In this document: positions 5,716 through 37,028 of the stretch, in pieces
Layout: each line of letters begins with the position of its first letter
Position numbering within the stretch: the first letter of the stretch is position 1
DNA from: Candidatus Levybacteria bacterium RIFCSPLOWO2_12_FULL_39_17
GTDB taxonomy: Bacteria > Patescibacteriota > Microgenomatia > Levybacterales > GWA1-39-11
NCBI GenBank assembly: GCA_001782675.1
Contig: MFPJ01000030.1
Location: forward strand, 1-39,064
DNA length: 39,064 bases
Direction: 5' to 3'
The notes under the pieces: generated by a model
Told to the model about the DNA's origin: nothing
The model's input: the letters and a program-made list of their open reading frames with translations, nothing else
The model's database searches: none
Made by a program: the position numbers and the translations under genes

Positions 5716-6547
5716 CAATAATGTTACTAGTCCGCCTAAGGCGAACACGGTCTACTATTTCTAGTAGACTCTGCATATCGCTATGCAGTTCGGACTATAT
5801 CTTTCCCGTCCCGTTAGATAAATTATCTAATGGGATGGGATCTTGCGTATAGTCTCTGAGGCTCTTAAGACAATAAAACTTCTTTTGAATATCTTTTATT
5901 GGTAACTCGTGGGTTTTGAAATACTTTTTCAACTATTTGTTGAAATCCTTCTCGAGTTAAATGCTCTTTCTTTTCTATCAGTGAAAGCACGAACTCAAAA
6001 ATCGATAACTCTACTCTTTTCGATGTATGTAATGGGTATTTCTTAAAAAAGGGAATTAATTTCTCTTTTAAATTCTTTCTGTCTTTAACAATTAAGACCC
6101 AAGATTTATCTTTTGAACTTCCTGGATGGTTAGGTTTTAAATAACCACAACCTAATCTTCTAGAAAATTCTTCAAGAACGTTCTTCCCTCCAGGATTTTG
6201 ACTTAAGTGGAATTCTGTTATTATTTGCCATTTAAGCGGGAGATCTTCTCGTTTCCCAAATCCTACATAAAAACACCCTTCACCGTCTACAAAACCACTC
6301 AGATATTCGTTTGAAACTTTATTCTCAATTGCCTGCTGATTGTCCGCATCTAAAGCTTTTTTACTTGACATAGAGATAGATTATCTCTATTTACTGTGCT
6401 TGTCAAGTAGCTTAGAATACTCGGAGTTTCCAGCATATAGCAAGATTTATCCCCGATAAAATCGGGGTTCTTCAATTTTCCTCTTTAGTTACAAAACGCT
6501 GAAGAGAGACAGCTCTTTTATGGTAATTGTCTATTAACCATAGGTCT
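5716..6547 (-). other. Group I intron 1 in 23S rRNA (homing-endonuclease bearing)
   Basis: The 5' exon ends ...AGACAGT and the 3' exon resumes TCGGTC, matching uninterrupted 23S around E. coli 2604/2605. Inside the intron, GCTGTCT pairs with the exon AGACAGU to form P1 with the expected terminal U-G pair, and the intron ends in G. The core segment AAGATATAGTCC is present, with GAGACTA upstream as the partner P7 strand. An 832-base length includes the LAGLIDADG frame (5865-6371). A CCCCGATTTTATCGGGG palindrome lies in the 5' part. Subclass looks like IB but was not folded. Confidence 0.82.
5865..6371 (-). CDS. LAGLIDADG homing endonuclease of 23S intron 1
   Basis: The 168-residue protein carries a single LAGLIDADG motif (YLSGFVDGEGCFYVGF, about residues 23-38) and a length like that of I-CreI, so it should act as a homodimer that cuts intronless 23S genes and drives intron homing. 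Its FHLSQNPGGKNVLEEF and C-terminal helices fit LAGLIDADG_1 proteins. It lies wholly inside the group I intron. The frame is intact, which suggests the intron is still under selection or recently acquired. Target site and activity are untested. Confidence 0.88.
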   Translation of the reverse strand: MSSKKALDADNQQAIENKVSNEYLSGFVDGEGCFYVGFGKREDLPLKWQIITEFHLSQNPGGKNVLEEFSRRLGCGYLKPNHPGSSKDKSWVLIVKDRKNLKEKLIPFFKKYPLHTSKRVELSIFEFVLSLIEKKEHLTREGFQQIVEKVFQNPRVTNKRYSKEVLLS

Positions 6548-6702
6548 ACTGTCTTACGACGTTCTGAACCCAGCTCGCGTACCTTTTTAACGGGCGAACA
6601 GCCCGACGCTTGGGAGCTTCTTCACCCCCGCGCTAAGATGAGCCGACATCGAGGTGCCAAACCGCCTCGTCGCTATGGACGCTTGGAGGCGATCAGCCTG
6701 TT

Positions 6703-7139
6703 CATGTTATTCCGATTAAATCGGAATGACAAATCAGCAATTTCTTGCTGCACTGACTATATCTTCATCCCGATAAAATCGGGAGTACGGCGTGTGATAA
6801 AAGTCATAAATTTTCTTGTTAATGTAACAAGAAACAACTTCTATCTCAGTTCCATGAATGGAACATCAGTCGATACGGGGTCGACGGTTATCTGTTTTCT
6901 GTTGTCGGTTGTCAGATATTCGTTTACCGGTTGTCTGTTTGTCAGTCTGATAAACTGCAAACTGATAGACCAGATTCCGAACACTGAAAACCGAGAACCG
7001 ATAACTGAAGACTTCCCACGGTATTACCCTTTGCCTCCCTCGATTATGGAAAAGACCAAAACCAAAGCAAGAGGGCTCCACCGTTATTAGCCGTATGCCT
7101 GGCCTTATGTTACCATAAGACCCGGACACAGTAAATTGT
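6703..7139 (-). other. Group I intron 2 in 23S rRNA (no open reading frame)
   Basis: Uninterrupted 23S would read GGGGATAACAGGCTG; here GGGGAT is separated from AACAGGCTG by 437 bases. The insertion follows U2449 by E. coli numbering, a position known to host group I introns. The exon GGAU can pair with GUCC inside the intron for P1, the intron ends in G, and the core segment GAAGATATAGTC is present with GACT upstream as P7 partner. No long protein frame is convincing. A loop of about 120 bases is filled with CTGTTTTC/GAAAACCG-type inverted repeats, and ATCGGAAT/ATTCCGAT-type palindromes lie near the 3' end. Confidence 0.75.
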
Positions 7140-9080
7140 ATCCCCGGGGTAGCTTTTATCCGTTAAGCTGCGTCCCGACCAATAAGGAACGCAGGATCAC
7201 TTAGACCTACTTTCGTACCTGCTCGACTTGTGAGTCTCACAGTCAAGCTGGCTTATGCCTATGCACTTACAACGCGATTTCCATCCGCGTTAAGCCAACC
7301 TTTGTACAACTCCGTTGCAATTTAGGAGTCAACCTCCCCAGTTAAACTGCCCACCACGCACTGTTTTCTTCCCGGATTTTTATGCGGGATAAGAATAATG
7401 ATTACCCATTTCAAAGAGAGGTATTTCACTGACCCCCGCCTTGCGGCGGGGTCCCTCCTATTCTCGACAGTTGAAAAAAGCTTTCAAATGCGAAGCTACA
7501 GTAAAGCTCCCGGGGTCTTTTTGTCCTAGGACAACCAGGCCGCGTCTTCACAGCCATCTCAATTTCGCCGGGTAAATGTTCAAGACAGTTGCTCAGTCGT
7601 TCTACCTTTCGTGCGGGTCGGAACTCACCCGACAAGGAACTTCGCTACCATAGAACAGTTATAGTTACTGCTGCCGTTCACTGGAGCTTTGATAACGAGC
7701 TGACTCTTACGAGCTTCACTCACCATCATTGACTTACCAGCACTGGGCAGGTGTCAGCCCCTATACTTTGCCTTTCGGCTTTGCAGGGACCTGTGTTTTA
7801 GATAAACAGTCGCTAAGCAAACTTTCGCTGCGGCCAGGATACCGGCTGGTACCTGGCAGGGCATCTCCCAAAGGTTACGCCCAGCTTTTTTGCCGAGTTC
7901 CTTGAACATTCTTCTCCCGATCGCCTTGGTGTTCTCCACCAGTCTACCTGTGTCGGTAATGCGGTACGGCAAGACTTGACACTCCCTGTGAATCTTTTCT
8001 CGCAGGCTGAAAGATAGATCCTCGTCCTACTCAGTTTCCCTTTCAAACTCGTACTCGCCACTCAATTTAACATTCTGACGGATTTCCCTATCAAAACTAT
8101 TTTATGGCTTAAACCCCGCAAGCGGGGCGATCTCTTCCACCCTGGTTAATCCCCAGGTGATAACCCCCTTGCGGGGGTAAACGCATCAAAACCTGTAGTC
8201 GAATTTTAACGACTCGTCCATCCGGCTACCCCGCGTTTCACACGGGCCACCGTTAGGAGCCGACTAACCCTTCGCTGACTTACATTGCGAAGGAAACCTT
8301 AGACTTTCGGCGTTCCGATTTCTCATCGGAATAATCGCTACTCATGCCAGCATTCTCACTCCCGCCTACTCCAGCAAGCCTTACGGCTCACCTTCAAAGC
8401 TGGCGGGACGCTCCCTTACTGCATTCCGGTCGTAAAACCGGAACACCTCCGTCTTCGGCATCAAGCTTAATCCTCGATCATTTTCGACGCCACAATCCCA
8501 AATCGACTAGTGAGCTGTTACGCTTTCTTTAAAGGATGGCTGCTTCTGAGCCAACCTCCTAGGTGTCTGAGGATCATGACTTTCTTAACAACTTAGCTTG
8601 AATTTAGAGGCCTTAAACGGGAGTCTGGGTTGTTTCCCTCTCGACCCACGACCTTAGCGCCGCAGGACTGACTCTCTATTCCAAAATGTTGGTATTCGGA
8701 GTTTGATTGATCCTGAAGAGTTTCCTCTCCAGATACCATTCAGTGCTCTACCCCCAACATTTATCAAATAAAGGCTATACCTAAATATATTTCAGGGAGA
8801 ACCAGCTATCTCCAAGTTCGATTGGCATATTACCCCTAACCACAAGTCATCCCATGATATTGCTACATCAACGGGTTCGGGCCTCCTGCCGATTTTCATC
8901 GGCATTCACCCTGCTCATGGTTAGCTCACCTGGTTTCGGGTCTTCTGTAACCTTCTAAATAGCCCAGTTAGGGCTCGCTTTCACTTCGCCTCCGTCGCAA
9001 TACGACTTAGACTTGAAGGCAACAAAAACTCACTGGCTCATTCTTCAATAGGCACGTGATCACTCGTGCACAGCACGAGG

Positions 9081-9185
9081 ATAAATTAACCTAATTGACC
9101 TAATTACTAATTGATCTAATCAATTGGACACTTTAAAAAATTGGTGCTTGATTAGAAATTAGAATAATTAGAAATTAGAAATTTA
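9081..9185 (-). repeat. Dispersed AT-rich repeat, copy 1, inside a 23S helix
   Basis: A run of AATTAG/CTAATT units forms a long imperfect hairpin, for example TCTAATCAA pairing with TTGATTAGA. It is capped on the rRNA helix formed by GCACGAGG (9073-9080) and CCTTGTGC (9187-9194), at about the position of E. coli helix 25. The same core (AAAAAATTGGTG then CTTGATTAG) recurs in the intergenic copy at 26566-26699. Confidence 0.75.
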
Positions 9186-9261
9186 GCCTTGTGCCATGCA
9201 CAAGCCTTCACTGCTTGTTAGCCATTAGTTTCAGGTACTATTTCATCCCCCTCCCGGGGTG

Positions 9262-9300
<39 letters not shown>

Positions 9301-9524
9301 AAGTGCTGATATTTAGCTTTGGAGCTTGGTCGCCCCGGCTTCCCACAGGGTTTAATCGTGCCCCATGGTACTCAGGAACAGACAAGGCGTAGAAAAAAAT
9401 TTCGCTTACAGGACTATCACCTTCTATGGTGGTGCAGTTCCGGCACCTTCTACTATCTTTTTCAACATCCTTTTGCATTTAAGCAAGTCGTCCTACAACA
9501 CTTCTTCTGCTCCGCAGAAGAAAA

Positions 9525-9658
9525 TCCTAATTGACCTAATTACTAATTTACCTAATCAAATACCAAAACCCAATGAGCAATGACTAAAACTTAGAACATT
9601 GAACATTGAAGAATTAGAAAATTGATTAGAAATTAGAATAATTAGAAATTAGAAATTT
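9525..9658 (-). repeat. Dispersed AT-rich repeat, copy 2, inside a 23S helix
   Basis: The same CTAATTGACCTAATTACTAA opening and TTGATTAGAAATTAG closing arms as copy 1, here with a different loop containing GAACATTGAACATTGAAG. It extends another domain I helix of 23S and is followed by its own small stem CCTTTTGCGAAGCAAAAGG. Confidence 0.72.
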
Positions 9659-9984
9659 CCTTTTGCGAAGCAAAAGGAGTTTGAGCTGATCCCTTTTCAC
9701 TCGCCGCTACTAAGGGAATCTCTTTGATTTCTTTTCCACCGGTTACTTAGATGTTTCAGTTCACCGGGTTCCCTACCCGCCACTAATATGATCTCGATAA
9801 ATCGAAACCAACTTCATGGCAAAGGTTATGCCGAATTTGCATCGGCATGGGTTTCCCCATTCGGACACCGCCGGATCAAAGCATCATGGGCTGCTCCCCG
9901 ACGATTTTCGCTGCCGTAGAAACGTCCTTCTTCGGTCAACACTTCCTAGGCATCCACTAATGGCGTGGCAATAGCGTAGATTTT

Positions 9985-29270: not shown

Positions 29271-29618
29271 ATGACTTGGGAAATTAAGCTTTTCGAATCA
29301 AAGCGTGGAGAAAAGCCGGTTGAAGAATTTATTAAATCACTGAATGAGAGGGTGCAACTAAAGATTACAAGAACACTTGAACATCTTGAGGAATTTGGGC
29401 TCGAAGGTGCATATCCACATGTTAAGAAGCTGACCAGTACTTCACTTTGGGAACTTCGCATACTGGGAGGAGACAACATTCGTATTTTCTATGTCACAAT
29501 TACTGGAAAAGTATTTTTGCTATTACATGGATTTAAGAAGAAAACACAAAAGACACCTACTAAAGAGATTGCTATTGCCCAGAAGCGTTTAGATGAATAC
29601 CAGTCAAGAAAAAATTAA
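29271..29618 (+). CDS. higB: HigB/RelE-type toxin
   Basis: A 115-residue protein of the phage Gp49-like HigB group: WEIKLFESKRGEKPVEEFIK at the start, then LEEFGLEGAYPHVKKLTSTSLWELRI and NIRIFYVTITGKVFLLLHGFKKKTQKTP, the conserved strand-and-basic-helix end with the FxKKTQK motif that lines the ribonuclease site. Such toxins cut mRNA on the ribosome. The helix-turn-helix antitoxin gene follows 40 bases downstream, the toxin-first order of HigBA modules. Confidence 0.9.
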   Translation: MTWEIKLFESKRGEKPVEEFIKSLNERVQLKITRTLEHLEEFGLEGAYPHVKKLTSTSLWELRILGGDNIRIFYVTITGKVFLLLHGFKKKTQKTPTKEIAIAQKRLDEYQSRKN

Positions 29619-29621
29619 GGG

Positions 29622-29651
29622 TTGACAAATATCGCAATTTTGCGATATAAT
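29622..29651 (+). promoter_or_regulatory. Antitoxin promoter with palindromic operator
   Basis: TTGACA (29622-29627), 18 bases, TATAAT (29646-29651), seven bases to the ATG at 29659. The palindrome ATATCGCAATTTTGCGATAT (29629-29648; nine-base arms with a two-base centre) fills the spacer and runs into the -10, the expected binding site for the antitoxin to repress its own promoter. No second copy is seen before the toxin. Confidence 0.78.
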
Positions 29652-29658
29652 ACTTTTT

Positions 29659-29931
29659 ATGAAAGCTTGGAATGAATTAAAAAAAGAATTACTAAAAAAT
29701 CCTGAATTTAAAAGGCAATATGAAGAGTCTCAACCTGAATATGAAATTGCTCGGGCTATCATTCGTGTGCGGATTGAGAAAAAAATGACTCAAAAAGAGC
29801 TGGCCAAAAAAATGAATACTACTCAATCTGTTATCTCTAGAGTTGAACAAGCTAAAACAAGTCCTTCTATTTCCTTCCTCAAGCGTTTAGCAACAGCTCT
29901 CAATACCACTCTCCAAATCCAATTTAAATAA
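29659..29931 (+). CDS. higA: HigA-type helix-turn-helix antitoxin
   Basis: A 90-residue XRE-family protein. The N-terminal third (MKAWNELKKELLKNPEFKRQ...) is the toxin-binding helix, followed by a Cro/C1-type DNA-binding domain: MTQKELAKKMNTTQSVISRVEQ and the SPSISFLKRLATALNTTLQI end. It should neutralise the HigB toxin and repress transcription through the palindrome at 29629-29648. It has its own leaderless promoter, so antitoxin can be made without toxin. Confidence 0.92.
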   Translation: MKAWNELKKELLKNPEFKRQYEESQPEYEIARAIIRVRIEKKMTQKELAKKMNTTQSVISRVEQAKTSPSISFLKRLATALNTTLQIQFK

Positions 29932-30885: not shown

Positions 30886-32025
30886 CTATATGGTAAGAGA
30901 ATTAACAAAATCAAGAATCTTTTTGTCAAAAACTTCGCTTGAAAACTTTTCGGCTTGTTTGCGGCATTCGTCCGAACTTATTTTTGCCTTTTCGAACTTT
31001 TTAATCGCCTCATTTATTGCATCAGGTGTATTCTCGTCAAAAAATATTCCTGTTGCCACTTGCCCTGAGCTTGTCGAAGGGTCAACTACTGTTTCGCGAA
31101 CTCCGCCAGATCGGTACGCTATAACCGGTGTCCCGGCTGCCATTGCCTCAACCGGCGTAATTCCAAAATCCTCATCAAATGAGGCAAAAACATATGCTTT
31201 TGCATTTGCCATTAATTCTTGTCTTTCAATATCAGTAACTTCACCTAAAAACTCTATGTTTTTTCCTGCCATTGACTTAAGCTCTTCGTCAAATCCCGCG
31301 AATCCTTTACCAAATACCTTAAGCTTTTTACCACTTCTGTTAAAAGCCTCGACAATAATGTCGATCCCTTTTGCCCTCGCAAGCCTTCCTCCCGCAAGGT
31401 AGTATTCCTTTTTCTTCACCCCCGAGGTGGGGGCTGCTTTCACCTCGGGGGTGGATAACGAGACGGGTGGATTTATCACCACCGCATCTTTTCTATAAAA
31501 CTTTTGAATTCGGACTCGAACTTCTTCTGAATTAGCTATGAAATAATCAACATTTTCTGACGCTTTAAAATCTACCATTCGCAAAAAATGATTTGCAATC
31601 GAACCAAAAATTCGCATTAATGTATCTTTCTGCCATTCTCGCGCAGTCATATATCCATATAGATAGCGCGGTGGTGTGTGGGTGTAGCAAACAAGTTTAG
31701 CTCTACCCTTTCGAACTAGATTTGGGAAATATGCTCCTGTTTGAGAAACAATAATTACATCGAATTTCGAAAGATCAAATGATAGAAAAGAAAGAGGAGA
31801 AATCAAGCGAAAAATAGAAATGAGTTTTTCTTTATACGGAATCCACTGAAGAAAGGAGGTTTTAATTCGCATCTGCCGAAATACCCACATGTGAGGCCCT
31901 AAATATTCCGGAGCGTATATCGAAGTATAAACCGGCGCCTCAGGAAAGAGTTTGTGCAATTCCTCTAATACCCTTTCAGCTCCCCCATACTCTTTTATGT
32001 AGTCATGAACTATCGCAATCCGCAT
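30886..32025 (-). CDS. GT4-family glycosyltransferase
   Basis: The 379-residue protein has the GT-B fold: EYGGAERVLEELHKLF at the N-terminus, a central VNPPVSLS and GRLARAKGIDIIVEAF, and the donor-binding EDFGITPVEAMAAGTPVIAY with the E-x7-E motif. GT4 enzymes use nucleotide sugars to build envelope glycans or glycolipids; the exact sugar cannot be told. Between VVD and VATGIFF the residues PSTSSGQ are encoded by CCCTGAGCTTGTCGAAGGG, a dispersed repeat read in frame. Its ATG overlaps the stop of the 5'-3' exonuclease gene by one base (TAATG), so the two genes are co-translated. Confidence 0.9.
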   Translation of the reverse strand: MRIAIVHDYIKEYGGAERVLEELHKLFPEAPVYTSIYAPEYLGPHMWVFRQMRIKTSFLQWIPYKEKLISIFRLISPLSFLSFDLSKFDVIIVSQTGAYFPNLVRKGRAKLVCYTHTPPRYLYGYMTAREWQKDTLMRIFGSIANHFLRMVDFKASENVDYFIANSEEVRVRIQKFYRKDAVVINPPVSLSTPEVKAAPTSGVKKKEYYLAGGRLARAKGIDIIVEAFNRSGKKLKVFGKGFAGFDEELKSMAGKNIEFLGEVTDIERQELMANAKAYVFASFDEDFGITPVEAMAAGTPVIAYRSGGVRETVVDPSTSSGQVATGIFFDENTPDAINEAIKKFEKAKISSDECRKQAEKFSSEVFDKKILDFVNSLTI

Positions 32026-32954
32026 TATAATAATTTCATTTGATTCTCTTTTTTAATTTCCTGCTTTTGGTTAAAAATTTCATCAACTCTCCTTGGGAGC
32101 GTCTTGAATTCGTAAGATTCGAGCGCCTTTTTAAACTCGCCGATATCTATTTTTGAGGTCAAACAATCCGCAAAATCACAAACAAAAGGAACATCTGTTA
32201 CAATTTTTGCCAAGGTTTTTCCTATCTGCGCGGATTCTGCCCCATCTATTAACTTTTGCGCCAACGCTTTATTCTTGATCGCAATTTCATCAAGATGTTT
32301 ATAAATATTATCAACATTTCCATAATGCCGAACCAAGGTTGCCGCAGTCTTTGGACCGATTCCTGAGACTCCCGGATAATTATCGGATGGATCGCCGGTC
32401 AGCGCTTTCAAATCAACGATTTCACGAGGTTCCACATTATACTTTGTTAGAACTTCTCCCTCATCAAAAACCTTAACTTCCGAAATCCCTTTTACAGGCA
32501 TTAACACTTTTGTTTTATGGTTTACAAGTTGGAGCATATCACGGTCTCCGGTCACTATATAGACAATATTTCCCATGTCCTTTGCCTTTTCCGAGAGAGT
32601 ACCGATGATATCATCCGCTTCATATCCGTCAACAGCGAATTCCTGAATTTTTGCCTTGCGCAAAATGTCAATAATCGCTTGATATTGTTCCGATAAATCA
32701 GACTCCATCTTTGGTCTCTGCGCCTGATATCCCACATATAATTCTTGACGAAATGTTGGTTTTGGCCGGTCAAAAGCCACGACAATATGAGCCGGTTTTA
32801 ATTCATGAATTAATTTTAAAAACATTGAGAAAAAACCATGGACTGCGCCGGTTGGAACGCCGGAACTTGTAGTGAATGGGGGCATTGCGTGATAGGCGCG
32901 ATGCACTATTGCCGAACCGTCAACTAACATGAAAATACTCTTCTTGGAATCCAT
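32025..32954 (-). CDS. Stand-alone 5'-3' exonuclease (PolA N-terminal type)
   Basis: A 309-residue FEN-like nuclease equal to the N-terminal domain of DNA polymerase I. It holds the metal-binding acidic residues in LVDGSAIVHRAYHAMP, VVAFDRPKPTFRQ, DGYEADDIIGTL and VTGDRDMLQLV, followed by the helix-hairpin-helix DNA-binding GDPSDNYPGVSGIGPKTAATL. No polymerase domain follows; the next gene is a glycosyltransferase. It should remove RNA primers and flaps. TATAAT lies six bases before the ATG (leaderless). Whether a separate polymerase part exists elsewhere cannot be seen. Confidence 0.93.
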   Translation of the reverse strand: MDSKKSIFMLVDGSAIVHRAYHAMPPFTTSSGVPTGAVHGFFSMFLKLIHELKPAHIVVAFDRPKPTFRQELYVGYQAQRPKMESDLSEQYQAIIDILRKAKIQEFAVDGYEADDIIGTLSEKAKDMGNIVYIVTGDRDMLQLVNHKTKVLMPVKGISEVKVFDEGEVLTKYNVEPREIVDLKALTGDPSDNYPGVSGIGPKTAATLVRHYGNVDNIYKHLDEIAIKNKALAQKLIDGAESAQIGKTLAKIVTDVPFVCDFADCLTSKIDIGEFKKALESYEFKTLPRRVDEIFNQKQEIKKENQMKLL

Positions 32955-33040
32955 AAGGGAATTATAACAAAAAGGGGAATCTTACAATTGACAACTGACA
33001 TTTGACATGTGACAAGTTTAGTTAATTGTTAAATGTTAAA

Positions 33041-34310
33041 TGTTTTTAGGGGGAATGGGTTGGGCGCGCGGGCAGAGACTCACAGAATGTGAGAGATCAG
33101 CAACAGCTGAAAATAGTTTCAACCCGAAGGCTGAAATAGAGATTTTGTCTCTGTTTTTCCCGCGCGCCCATTGCCCAGTCTGCGATGCTCTATTGCAAGA
33201 GGAAGCTTGGGTTTGAGACCCAGCCGAGCATGAGCTTCGGACATAGGGGTCTCCTATAACTTTTGGCTTCCCTTGCAAGGAAGAGCATGGTAGTCGTCCA
33301 CACGATGAGTCAGCCGGAGGGCTAGAATCCTTTTTGAATGGGAGAAGCGACGAGTCCGAACTGGTGAGAACTCTTATGTGGGTAAGCCTTGGCCTACGAT
33401 ATGGAGAGTCCCCATTGCCCAGCATTATTTGGTCTCGTGTACGCTCATTTTCATCCAAAAAGCAATCCTTGCCCCGTCAGTCAGACTCAGAAGAGATACT
33501 TAAGATGTACCATCCATCTCCTCCTAAGAGAGGTGTTTTCTGCGACCGTACGAAAGTTCGGCTAAATCCAACGCTTAGGCGAAGGGGGGCAGGTGACAAA
33601 CGACCTTGGCGTCCGATGGGTAAACCCATGAACTCGGACAATCGTTGAGATCGTTCACTTGTCATCCAATCGCTTACTGCGAAGAGCTAGCCCTTGGGGG
33701 GGTTGACAGGTGGCTGTTGCCGTCTATTCTTTTTTAGGACTGACCCCTGGAATTCCTAAGTAGGATCTCTGTTGTGCATATCCTCTCCTGTGGATAACTT
33801 GCTCGGAACGAATGTTCCAGTAGTCCCGACGTTAGGAAATCGCCAGATGTGGGGCCCGGTCGCTGCAGTTGGCGACGATGTCGATCTCGCTGCTCGAGGA
33901 AACGATCGTCCTCGGGATGGTAGAAGCGAGATGCCGCATGGGAATCCTCCTTTTTACGGGTAGACTGGTGTTGGCGTGACTTGGCTTAGTCCAGCGCGGG
34001 CGATAGGACAGTCAAACGACTGATGCTTTAGACGAATAAATCGTCTCTACACATTATTCCAATCGCTACGCGAAGGTTCAGCCCCAAGGCAAGATGCCGT
34101 GTGATCCTTGATCCCAGAAAACCTATTCAATTTTTCCTCAGGTCGAAGACTCCGCACCTCCCAACACATGATTAGAAAAGGCAACCTTCCGCTCGATAGT
34201 CAATAGATTCTACCGAACCAGAAAGTGTGATATCGCGAAAGTATCCGATATTTGATTGCCTTTGACGACTAATGAATTCTTTTTTCCTCCCTTCTTTTTT
34301 CAACTGTGGA
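33041..34310. ncRNA. Unclassified structured non-coding RNA region
   Basis: About 1.27 kb with higher GC than its surroundings and no credible protein frame. It is full of strong stems: GGGCGCGCGGG (33062-33072) with CCCGCGCGCCC (33159-33169) plus CAGAGAC/GTCTCTG inside; ATGCTCT/AGAGCAT and GCAAGAGGAAGC/GCTTCCCTTGC across 33185-33288; GGTGACAA/TTGTCATCC enclosing AACGA/TCGTT, GTCCGA/TCGGAC and ATGGGT/ACCCAT at 33592-33667; CGAGGA/TCCTCG near 33896-33915; GGCAA/TTGCC around 34180-34260. A promoter-like pair at 33703-33730 suggests two plus-strand units. I found neither the RNase P P4 core (GGAAAGTCC) nor a tmRNA tRNA-like end, so the class is unknown; a divergent version of either is possible. 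Confidence 0.4.
33703..33730 (+). promoter_or_regulatory. Promoter-like element within the structured region
   Basis: TTGACA (33703-33708), 16 bases, TATTCT (33725-33730), followed by about 550 bases of stem-rich, non-coding sequence. It may start the second RNA unit. Confidence 0.45.
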
Positions 34311-34351
34311 TTTCCGGACTGAAAGCTTATCTTGCAATCAGAAATCCACAG
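34304..34351. repeat. 11-bp inverted repeat CTGTGGATTTC
   Basis: CTGTGGATTTC (34304-34314) and its exact reverse complement GAAATCCACAG (34341-34351) enclose 26 bases. A perfect TTATCCACA (minus strand) lies at 33789-33797. They recall DnaA boxes but there is no cluster or origin-associated gene. Between 34352 and 34510 the sequence is AT-rich with recurring GCAAAT/ATTTGC words and no gene. Confidence 0.45.
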
Positions 34352-34523
34352 CCGAAAAATGCGCTATGCAATAGAAGCACATTTTAAAGGAAGTTCGCAA
34401 ACTGGATTTTTAAAGTGCCAAAAAGCCTCTTTTGCTTCTCTATAAATGCTTGCAAATCGCATTTTTGAAAACAAATTTGGCTATTTAAAGCAAATATACA
34501 CCTAGCTTTAGCAAATTGCAAGA

Positions 34524-34641
34524 GGCCTCCTATTTACGAGGCCAGTCGAAGGGTTTACCATGAACAGAGTCGAAAGGGTCAATTGTCAGCCCGCCCCGCT
34601 TCGCGGAGCGGGGCCGGGGTTGTTAATTGTCAGTTGTCAAC
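34524..34641. repeat. Cluster of palindromes at the end of the non-coding block
   Basis: In order: the hairpin GGCCTC/GAGGCC (34524-34543); a GTCGAAGGG...GTCGAAAGGG pair (34545-34578) of the family seen in the glycosyltransferase gene; CCCCGCTTCGCGGAGCGGGG (34594-34613); and GTTAATTGTCAGTTGTCAAC (34622-34641). The last contains TGTCAGTTGTCAA, the exact reverse complement of TTGACAACTGACA at 32988-33000. Confidence 0.6.
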
Positions 34642-36898
34642 CTTGTGGTTTTCTTCCGTATTTTTCTTTCGATAAACGGACGATTGCCTCTTTGTTTTCA
34701 TTTTTTAAAGCAGGCAGGGGAAGCGTTGTTGCCGGGAAGGGCGCCGAGGTCATTCCGTCAATTGAAAGCTTCAAAACTATTTCGAATTTGCCAAGTGAAA
34801 CCAAATCATTTTCCGAATAGATTTCCGCGAATTCTTTTGTCAAAAGGTACGCGTCATGGGCGCCAACCACAAATGAAGCAAGCGTGCCGACATTTCCGTA
34901 AATTGCCCGTTGAACACTTAGCTCGAGCTGGTCGCTATACTGGTTTGCCAAAGTCAAAGACAGGCGATATTTTCTTGCTTCGGAGAGTATTTTAATAAAA
35001 GATTCTGTCGCGAAATTCTGAAACTCATCAACATAAAGAAAGAAGTCCGCTCTCTCTTCTTCTTTTTGAAAAGACCTATTCATTGCCGCAAGCTGAATCT
35101 GCGTAATAACCATCGCGCCCAAAAGCGCGGCATTATCTTCTCCGAGTTTCCCCTGTGAAAGATTAAGAATTAAAATTTTCCCTTCATCCATAATTCTCTG
35201 AAGATCAATTGAAGACTTTGGGTTGCCAATAATATTTCTTACCATGCGGCTTGAGACAAATTGACCGACCTTATTTTGAATTGGAGAAACAGCTTCGGCT
35301 TTCAATCTATCCGGCATCTTTGCAAATTCGGCTTCCCAGAAATTCCTGAGCACCGGATCTGATAATTTTGCTACAACTTTTTCCCGGAAGCCTGAATCAG
35401 ATAAGATTCTCAACGCATCTACAAGCGTCCCCTGCTCAATATCCAGAAGAGTTAAAATTACATTTCGGAGTATGTATTCTAAACGCGGCCCCCATGACTC
35501 ACCGTAAATCTTATGAAATATTGAGACAATCCCCGATGAGACAAGATCCTTGTGCTGTGAATTTTTAATCTCTAAGACATTTAGCGAAAACGGCCGCTCC
35601 GAATCAAAGGGTTCAAGATAAACCACATCTTTCATCCTTCTCTTCGGAATGTAATCGAGAATAATTTCCGACAAATCCCCGTGAGGATCAATTATTCCAA
35701 TTCCCCGGCCCCGCCTTATGTCATCAATTGCCATGTTCGCAATAAGAGTAGATTTTCCGGCTCCGGTTTTTCCAATTATGTAAACATGCTTTCTCCTGTC
35801 GGGAGTTTTTATTCCAAATATCGTTTCTTTATTTTTAAACTCGGCTTTCGCAAAAAAATTAACATCTTTCTTGTCCGCCATAGCCTTGGCATCGGCGGAT
35901 TTTTCATCAATTTGCCCATCCGCCGTTTTAACTACGGAGGGTGAAACCGGAAGATTTTCAGGAGGTTCTCCAAGCAAAGTTTTGCCCCAGGCAATATTTT
36001 TGATTCCGGCAAGCAAAAAACCTGAAGGATGCCAAAGGGAAGCCAGTTCTTGGGCATTTAGCACCTGATACCGCCTTTCAAAAAAACCCACAAAGCGTTC
36101 CCTTATTCTTTTGACTAACCTTTTTTTTGCAAAAAGCGGCTTTCTGAAAACAAACTGATTTCCCTCACCCAGCGAAAAGCTTCCGAATGTCCCTGCAAAG
36201 TTATGCATATAAGGCAGGGTATTTGGGTTGTCGGATCCAACCGCAAGTCTTACAACTGCTTTGCCTCCTTGAAAACCTGCTTTTTGCATCATCCGAAGCT
36301 TCTGCGGGTTTTGTGCGTAGCGAGTTGTTGCGCCCATGGAACTTTCGCCCGTTGCTACATCTTTGACTGCTTGTTGATGGGTATCCTCAATTAAGCGGCC
36401 TGCCATCTCAACCGCCTTGTCCTGCCAGGGAAAAGAAGCGGGCTTAATAAGAATTTGAAGAGCCATTTTGACTCCGGAATCCTGTTTTGCAAGAAATCCG
36501 AGAAGTGAGGACATTGGATCTATGTCTTTAAAATCGGCATAAGTTTTAATAGGAAGATAAGGATAAGAATTTAAGACCATTTCTCCAACCGAAAGATATT
36601 TGGACGAGAGGACTTTTTCCACAGGATCTTCTGTTTTTGAAACATTTGATTTTGGATAGGATGAAGAAATCAGGCTTGATACAAGCGTCTCGCTCTCGGA
36701 TTTTGTTGTTACATAAAAGAAAATGGTTTGGTCCAAAAGATAAATTTCAAAAGAGTAAGAGCGCGGATGAATATATAATCTTTTCCAGAGAGGAATATAG
36801 GGATACGGAAGGAGAGAGGAGAAGATTTGAGTCGCCGACTCAATTGGAGTTTCGTCGTCTTTTGGATTGCGGACTAAAAGGTGGGCAAAAATACTCAT
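34637..36898 (-). CDS. VirD4/HerA-like DNA-translocase ATPase
   Basis: About 753 residues. The N-terminal 350 form a poorly known region with beta and helical segments; the C-terminal half is a RecA-like motor with Walker A IIGKTGAGKSTLIANMA (about 376-390), GIIDPHGDLSEIIL, RNVILTLLDIEQ, and Walker B FFLYVDEFQNFA, then EARKYRLSLTLANQY. This is the TraG/VirD4/HerA layout used in conjugation and type IV systems, and as a chromosomal ATPase in Patescibacteria. No other secretion gene lies in the window. A TTG five codons upstream could also start, but the ATG at 36898 has TATAAT six bases before it, next to dispersed repeat copy 4. Confidence 0.85.
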   Translation of the reverse strand: MSIFAHLLVRNPKDDETPIESATQIFSSLLPYPYIPLWKRLYIHPRSYSFEIYLLDQTIFFYVTTKSESETLVSSLISSSYPKSNVSKTEDPVEKVLSSKYLSVGEMVLNSYPYLPIKTYADFKDIDPMSSLLGFLAKQDSGVKMALQILIKPASFPWQDKAVEMAGRLIEDTHQQAVKDVATGESSMGATTRYAQNPQKLRMMQKAGFQGGKAVVRLAVGSDNPNTLPYMHNFAGTFGSFSLGEGNQFVFRKPLFAKKRLVKRIRERFVGFFERRYQVLNAQELASLWHPSGFLLAGIKNIAWGKTLLGEPPENLPVSPSVVKTADGQIDEKSADAKAMADKKDVNFFAKAEFKNKETIFGIKTPDRRKHVYIIGKTGAGKSTLIANMAIDDIRRGRGIGIIDPHGDLSEIILDYIPKRRMKDVVYLEPFDSERPFSLNVLEIKNSQHKDLVSSGIVSIFHKIYGESWGPRLEYILRNVILTLLDIEQGTLVDALRILSDSGFREKVVAKLSDPVLRNFWEAEFAKMPDRLKAEAVSPIQNKVGQFVSSRMVRNIIGNPKSSIDLQRIMDEGKILILNLSQGKLGEDNAALLGAMVITQIQLAAMNRSFQKEEERADFFLYVDEFQNFATESFIKILSEARKYRLSLTLANQYSDQLELSVQRAIYGNVGTLASFVVGAHDAYLLTKEFAEIYSENDLVSLGKFEIVLKLSIDGMTSAPFPATTLPLPALKNENKEAIVRLSKEKYGRKPQG

Positions 36899-36904
36899 GG
36901 GTTT

Positions 36905-36910
36905 ATTATA
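36905..36910 (-). promoter_or_regulatory. -10 element of the VirD4-like gene (leaderless)
   Basis: Minus strand TATAAT six bases before the ATG at 36898, joined directly to AGAAATTAGAAATTG of repeat copy 4. The same junction precedes the hydrate dehydratase gene at 26551. Confidence 0.6.
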
Positions 36911-37028
36911 CAATTTCTAATTTCTAAATAATGCCGCACTGACCCAAGTCCCAATTGATTCCTCAATTAGGCATTGGAAATTGGGATTTGATTAGGTCAA
37001 TTAGGTTAATTAGATCAATTAAAAATTA
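36911..37028. repeat. Dispersed AT-rich repeat, copy 4
   Basis: Same family as the copies at 9081, 9525 and 26566: TTTCTAATTTCTAA at one end, GATTAGGTCAATTAGG and TTAATTAGATCAATTA at the other, with CCAATTGA...TCAATTAGGCATTGG in the middle. It fills the space between ftsH and the VirD4-like gene. Confidence 0.7.

Follow-up and report, generated by a model that had tools for sequence, protein, structure and literature searches.

A probable rRNA-style expression cassette for non-ribosomal cargo in a Candidatus Levybacteria genome

The locus and its surroundings

Candidatus Levybacteria, the host of the DNA described here, is a tiny groundwater bacterium, and the window that we analysed is a single stretch of 39,064 nucleotides from one of its genomes. 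Within the window, a block at 32988-34640 lies between a gene for a 5′-3′ exonuclease (32025-32954) and a gene for a VirD4/HerA-like ATPase (34637-36913), both on the minus strand; the best matches of the VirD4-like protein lie in two lineages of the Microgenomates, Candidatus Levybacteria and Roizmanbacteria. The GC content of the block is raised, as a preliminary description made from the letters had noticed, reaching 0.48-0.53 over 33001-34000 (about 0.50 in the core), whereas the genome as a whole has 0.386. The body of the block is present in a single copy in its own genome, and DNA homologues were found neither in 188 relatives nor in phages; the only match, of 28 nt within a nuclease gene of genome G017, was judged to be due to chance. 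At a contig end of that same genome there is a stretch that looks stem-rich and like a structured RNA (L010, 2627-2846), with no match in Rfam. The window itself also holds, at 29271-29931 on the plus strand, a toxin-antitoxin-like pair in which a Gp49-like (HigB-type) protein is followed by an HTH_3 protein.

Perfect 13-bp inverted repeats do stand on either side of the block, and their arms lengthen to 20 nt at 90%, but the bounding role that the preliminary description gave them was mistaken, and with it the limits of 32988 and 34640. The 13-mer TTGACAACTGACA is dispersed, with 8 exact copies in the genome where 0.04 would be expected and 48 copies with one mismatch where 1.6 would be expected, and copies related to it also occur on six other contigs.

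Coding signal, known RNA classes and folding

The earlier judgement that the block holds no believable protein agrees with our searches. On the minus strand, no open sense frame of the cargo exceeds 99 codons, against a mean of 106 for the longest frame in shuffles, three-base periodicity is absent from the block, and its four stop-masked frames gave no Pfam match at E ≤ 0.5; on these grounds we rejected a protein-coding reading of the block. It had also been held to belong to no known RNA class, and an Rfam scan of the block likewise returned no match at the gathering score or at a useful E-value, neither to the covariance models of RNase P and tmRNA, nor to OLE, GOLLD, ROOL and the other large RNAs of Rfam, nor to small- or large-subunit rRNA. 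That RNase P and tmRNA do not lie here fits with the candidates for the two found elsewhere in the genome, on contigs C14 and C41, the RNase P match being under its gathering score at E = 1e-11. The rRNA genes appear to be unlinked, since the 16S gene is on another contig (C42). The 23S gene, at 6493-9978 of the window on the minus strand, is 3486 nt long against 2925 for the model and so holds extra sequence, perhaps introns; just 3′ of it, an open reading frame at 5865-6371 (minus) looks by eye like a LAGLIDADG homing endonuclease.

Compared with dinucleotide shuffles, 33040-34260 folds with z = -8.5 on the minus strand and -5.3 on the plus strand. Much of this excess is due to the hairpin at 33061-33170: the interval 33000-33199 has a z near -6 to -7 whichever strand is folded, and 33180-34260 has a z of -5.0 on the minus strand. 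In pieces of 180 nt, the core has a mean z of -1.4 (minus) and -1.0 (plus), against +0.1 to -0.4 for the neighbouring genes and -2.6 for 16S. The block thus folds better than its shuffles, but the many long perfect stems first ascribed to it were an overstatement, because the excess comes largely from that one hairpin and the folding of the core is only moderate, no better than that of relatives whose spacers carry protein genes.

A minus-strand unit shared with relatives

The same order of VirD4-like ATPase, spacer and 5′-3′ exonuclease is found in two genomes of the same genus (G001, G002) and two of the same family (G004, G005), with spacers that are 1.4-2.2 kb long, raised in GC and share almost no sequence. 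On the minus strand, nonetheless, all five spacers present a −10-like box, a hairpin with TTTGCA(T) in its loop and a boxA-like element, and in the window these are part of a longer series of candidate elements (Table 1).

Table 1. Candidate elements of the minus-strand unit and the neighbouring repeats, in window coordinates
Feature	Position	Strand	Basis or remark
Right inverted repeat, reverse-complement copy of TTGACAACTGACA	34628-34640		Overlaps 3′ end of VirD4-like gene
Promoter-like pair TTGCAA - 17 nt - TATATT, putative unit start	34493-34521	minus	9/12 matches; weak alone
5′ leader hairpin, TTTGCA in loop (TTTGCAT in relatives)	34431-34476	minus	Comparison with relatives
boxA-like element GCACTTTAAAAA, degenerate	34407-34418	minus	Orthologues nearer consensus
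Closing (leader-trailer-like) helix, 5′ strand TCCAGTTTGCGA	34395-34406	minus	Abuts boxA; folding, comparison
Second leader hairpin, long, with arms of 19 nt that are 89% complementary	34296-34359	minus	Repeat search, folding
Cargo of about 1.2 kb within the closing helix, without coding signal	33186-34394	minus	Periodicity, ORF shuffles, Pfam
35-aa frame, its ATG at 33939 preceded at 6 nt by a full Shine-Dalgarno (AAGGAGG)	33832-33939	minus	Sole mini-protein candidate
Closing helix, 3′ strand TCGCAGACTGGG	33174-33185	minus	Folding, comparison
Terminal hairpin, large and branched, outer stem perfect over 12 bp, no clear T run	33061-33170	minus	Folding
Left inverted repeat, dispersed copy of TTGACAACTGACA	32988-33000		Outside unit, no boundary

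The −10-like box stands at the equivalent place in G001, G002, G004 and G005, and also in a unit recovered by the scans below (L102). The stems of the leader hairpin vary in sequence from species to species, with pairing possible, by eye, in each; an alignment of these hairpins with MAFFT was unreliable, and the hairpin of our copy is in the centroid fold and absent from the minimum free energy fold. Likewise by eye, the relatives have a hairpin of differing sequence at the place that corresponds to the second leader hairpin. The boxA-like element reads GCTCTTTGAAAA in G001, and GCTCCTTGACAA and GCTCTTTAACAA in the leaders of the genome's own 16S and 23S genes. When the minus strand of the window is folded, the segment just after boxA, CCAGUUUGCGA, finds its predicted partner 1.2 kb downstream, just ahead of the terminal hairpin, and this hairpin is likely to be the 3′ end of the transcript or a terminator.

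In all five spacers, the best helix of the post-boxA segment ends just ahead of the terminal hairpin, enclosing 1118-1617 nt. The fraction of shuffles that matched its score was 0.003, 0/300, 0.06, 0.11 and 0.01 in the five spacers, and in four of the five the cognate body ranked first in a comparison that included 13 bodies from other units. When the closing helices of our copy, G001, G002 and G005 were aligned, 93.8% of cells were paired, against 19-35% in slid controls, and 6 of the 12 pairs had changed on both sides, although these four alignable sequences are few and the register of the alignment was picked from the helix itself. The placement, the cognate pairing and the covariation together are good evidence that a minus-strand transcript would form this helix as RNA. 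Covariation in relatives, which the preliminary description had put forward as a check on a structured RNA, is found in the closing helix; the body has no sequence or structure conserved between species.

What the relatives carry inside the unit differs from what we find in the window. Open reading frames for membrane proteins of 219-286 aa are present in three of the four relative spacers, all but that of G004, whose cargo we take, from its sequence judged by eye rather than by a family search, to be a class I fructose-bisphosphate aldolase. These frames run with the neighbouring genes, that is, along the minus strand of the window, and their codon periodicity is clear in G001, G002 and G004 and weaker in G005.

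Scans for further units

A scan of 1.16 Mb for boxA followed by a long-range helix gave 14 matches against 1 in the control, and 23 against 8 in a looser version. The genome's own 16S rRNA came first among the 14, and the rest mostly adjoin a VirD4-like gene, in Levybacteria, Roizmanbacteria, Woesebacteria and Shapirobacteria. In most of the scanned units the helix follows boxA with zero spacing, as it does in 16S, a spacing that the 14-match scan did not impose. Because the helix served as the criterion for choosing several of these units, the pairing scores of those units carry no independent weight. The cargo of the scanned units comprises small proteins, mini membrane proteins that occur in groups, and proteins that are secreted or anchored in the membrane; that of L102 is a secreted protein that reads like a von Willebrand A domain, and the units L085 and L133/L134 have very short open reading frames.

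Within the genome itself, a looser scan again placed 16S at the top and gave 13 matches against 7 in the control, the unit of the window lying just under the cut-off and appearing at 26. Two matches, L166 and L157, were rejected as units because they overlap ordinary genes, and a third, L206, because it is a long inverted repeat instead; the 7 matches in the control, against 13, weighed against counting such matches as well. This repeat (contig C35, 12105-13620) is perfect over at least 25 nt, with arms about 1.5 kb apart and no open reading frame of 100 aa between them; it lies beside a tRNA-like sequence and is perhaps a relict mobile element. On contig C20, L161 (10740-14040, minus strand) is a second candidate rRNA-style unit, with the boxA GTTCTTTAACAA, a perfect closing helix of 13 bp and then a hairpin after the cargo. 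Its 3.3 kb of cargo has a GC content of 0.52 and holds small orphan membrane-protein frames and a lipoprotein frame; the cargo frames had no Pfam match, and one of them had no homologue in the genus.

Discussion

We consider it probable that the block is read from the minus strand and serves as an expression cassette of rRNA style with non-ribosomal cargo. Comparison with relatives shows its layout, its conserved position and its covarying closing helix; transcription, its strand and ends, the loading of Nus factors and processing by RNase III we infer from the sequence. The promoter-like pair would start a minus-strand transcript carrying the 5′ hairpin and boxA; the latter would be the loading site of NusB and the other Nus factors, and this loading would let RNA polymerase traverse a long, structured and poorly translated RNA. 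The 12 nt that follow boxA would then pair 1.2 kb downstream, looping out the cargo as the leader-trailer helix of pre-16S rRNA does, and RNase III may cut this closing helix, so that the cargo is released or protected. NusB and RNase III, the two factors on which such a mechanism would depend, are encoded in adjacent genes of this genome (G000, contig C35, 23709-24390, minus strand). The degenerate boxA of our copy speaks against the model.

For the cargo of our copy, the likeliest reading is an RNA of about 1.2 kb, specific to the lineage and noncoding or only minimally coding, in a slot that in relatives is taken by membrane or secreted proteins or by an enzyme. We place this reading first because the cargo has no coding signal, folds better than its shuffles and contains one frame of 35 aa led by a Shine-Dalgarno sequence. 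As the orthologous units carry periodic protein genes, our copy may instead be a decayed gene or a source of tiny peptides. A pseudogene inside a cassette that has kept its control signals would suit the membrane-protein frames of 219-244 aa at this place in G001 and G002, the chance-level frames of our cargo and the departure of its boxA from the consensus; we nonetheless think it unlikely, given that the cargo resembles the genes of G001 and G002 neither as DNA nor in translation and bears no Pfam trace, that it folds better than shuffles, and that the promoter-like pair, boxA and both strands of the helix are retained. Less likely again is a mostly structural mRNA from which one or a few mini-proteins are made. 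The 35-aa frame, with its AAGGAGG 6 nt from the ATG at 33939, would be a candidate, and the very short frames of L085, L133 and L134 provide a parallel, but the peptide has neither a membrane segment nor a relative, periodicity is absent, and most of the 1.2 kb would be left unaccounted for.

Two further readings leave the minus-strand unit aside. The idea of the preliminary description, a large structured RNA made from the plus strand independently of the minus-strand signals, draws on a raw fold energy for 33000-34000 that is slightly lower on the plus strand and on a positive G+C skew over 33001-34000, which slightly favours that strand and is a leftover inconsistency with the minus-strand model. 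Against it, the z-scores prefer the minus strand (-8.5 against -5.3), the covarying closing helix adjoins the boxA of the minus strand, and the 188 relatives and the phages searched offer no homologue for comparison; the internal plus-strand promoter proposed at 33703-33730 is at chance level, being one of 3 promoter-like sites found against 1.8 expected. We regard this idea as very improbable. The preliminary description was right that the block appears not to code and falls in no known RNA class, and a large RNA of a new kind may still be its product, but the firm evidence is for a minus-strand, rRNA-style unit with protein-carrying orthologues. A mobile element ending in the 13-mers, which would explain their inverted placement on both sides of the block, has the smallest chance of all: the 13-mer is scattered across the genome, the body is present once only, and the corresponding site in relatives is occupied by a spacer of similar length. 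A transposon or MITE was rejected, with a dispersed repeat in place of element-specific terminal inverted repeats and no second copy of the body.

Antitermination at boxA and the leader-trailer helix are regarded as machinery of rRNA synthesis. Returning to the cassette, we tentatively suggest, as a possibility that we rate well below the cassette itself, that the Microgenomates (CPR) possess a class of pre-rRNA-like non-ribosomal units with fast-evolving cargo, and that the unit described here yields a genuine noncoding RNA of about 1.2 kb with rRNA-like processing. If so, the streamlined CPR would have put a core system to new use, employing the rRNA package to express surface proteins that change fast, an enzyme of glycolysis and an RNA that apparently does not code, and some of the GC-rich, quickly diverging 'empty' spacers in CPR genomes would be accounted for. 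More units could be sought by a rule that is independent of their sequence, namely boxA followed immediately by a long-range helix.

Comparison with known systems

OLE, GOLLD and ROOL are large ornate bacterial RNAs (PMC12286853), and the block resembles them as a long, apparently noncoding, transcript-type element, but differs in having no Rfam match and a body without sequence or structure conserved between species. Because the orthologues of the minus-strand unit carry protein genes, we favour a cassette with replaceable cargo over a conserved family of ornate RNA.

Non-ribosomal boxA units share with the block the use of boxA outside rRNA operons. One such boxA stands upstream of CRISPR arrays, and we know of no description of a leader-trailer helix around the known non-ribosomal boxA units, whereas the units surveyed here have both boxA and such a helix; in the literature we found no boxA units described in CPR. 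In E. coli, boxA serves the Nus factor complex outside rRNA as well (PMC5725501).

A further comparison is with the pre-16S rRNA unit. The 30S subunit of E. coli cannot form without the leader-trailer helix, and boxA recruits the antitermination complex there; active 30S formation requires a helix of >17 bp (PMC10250234), and the 12 bp of the closing helix here count against the model in this respect. In the present genome, the boxA of the 16S gene, GCTCCTTGACAA, is directly followed by a helix, 20 bp or longer, that encloses about 1.74 kb. The unit of the window shares with pre-16S rRNA a promoter-like start, a leader hairpin, a boxA-like element (GCACTTTAAAAA, degenerate in this copy) downstream of the promoter, and a 5′ strand predicted to pair more than 1 kb downstream in a covarying helix of 12 bp. 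It differs in that this helix is shorter than that of 16S (9-14 bp among the surveyed units), that the cargo diverges almost past recognition among species of one genus, and that its product is not ribosomal RNA. For this last reason it would work like an rrn unit without being an rrn operon; in it a known system, the pre-rRNA-type unit, would be put to a variant use, and it matches no Rfam class.
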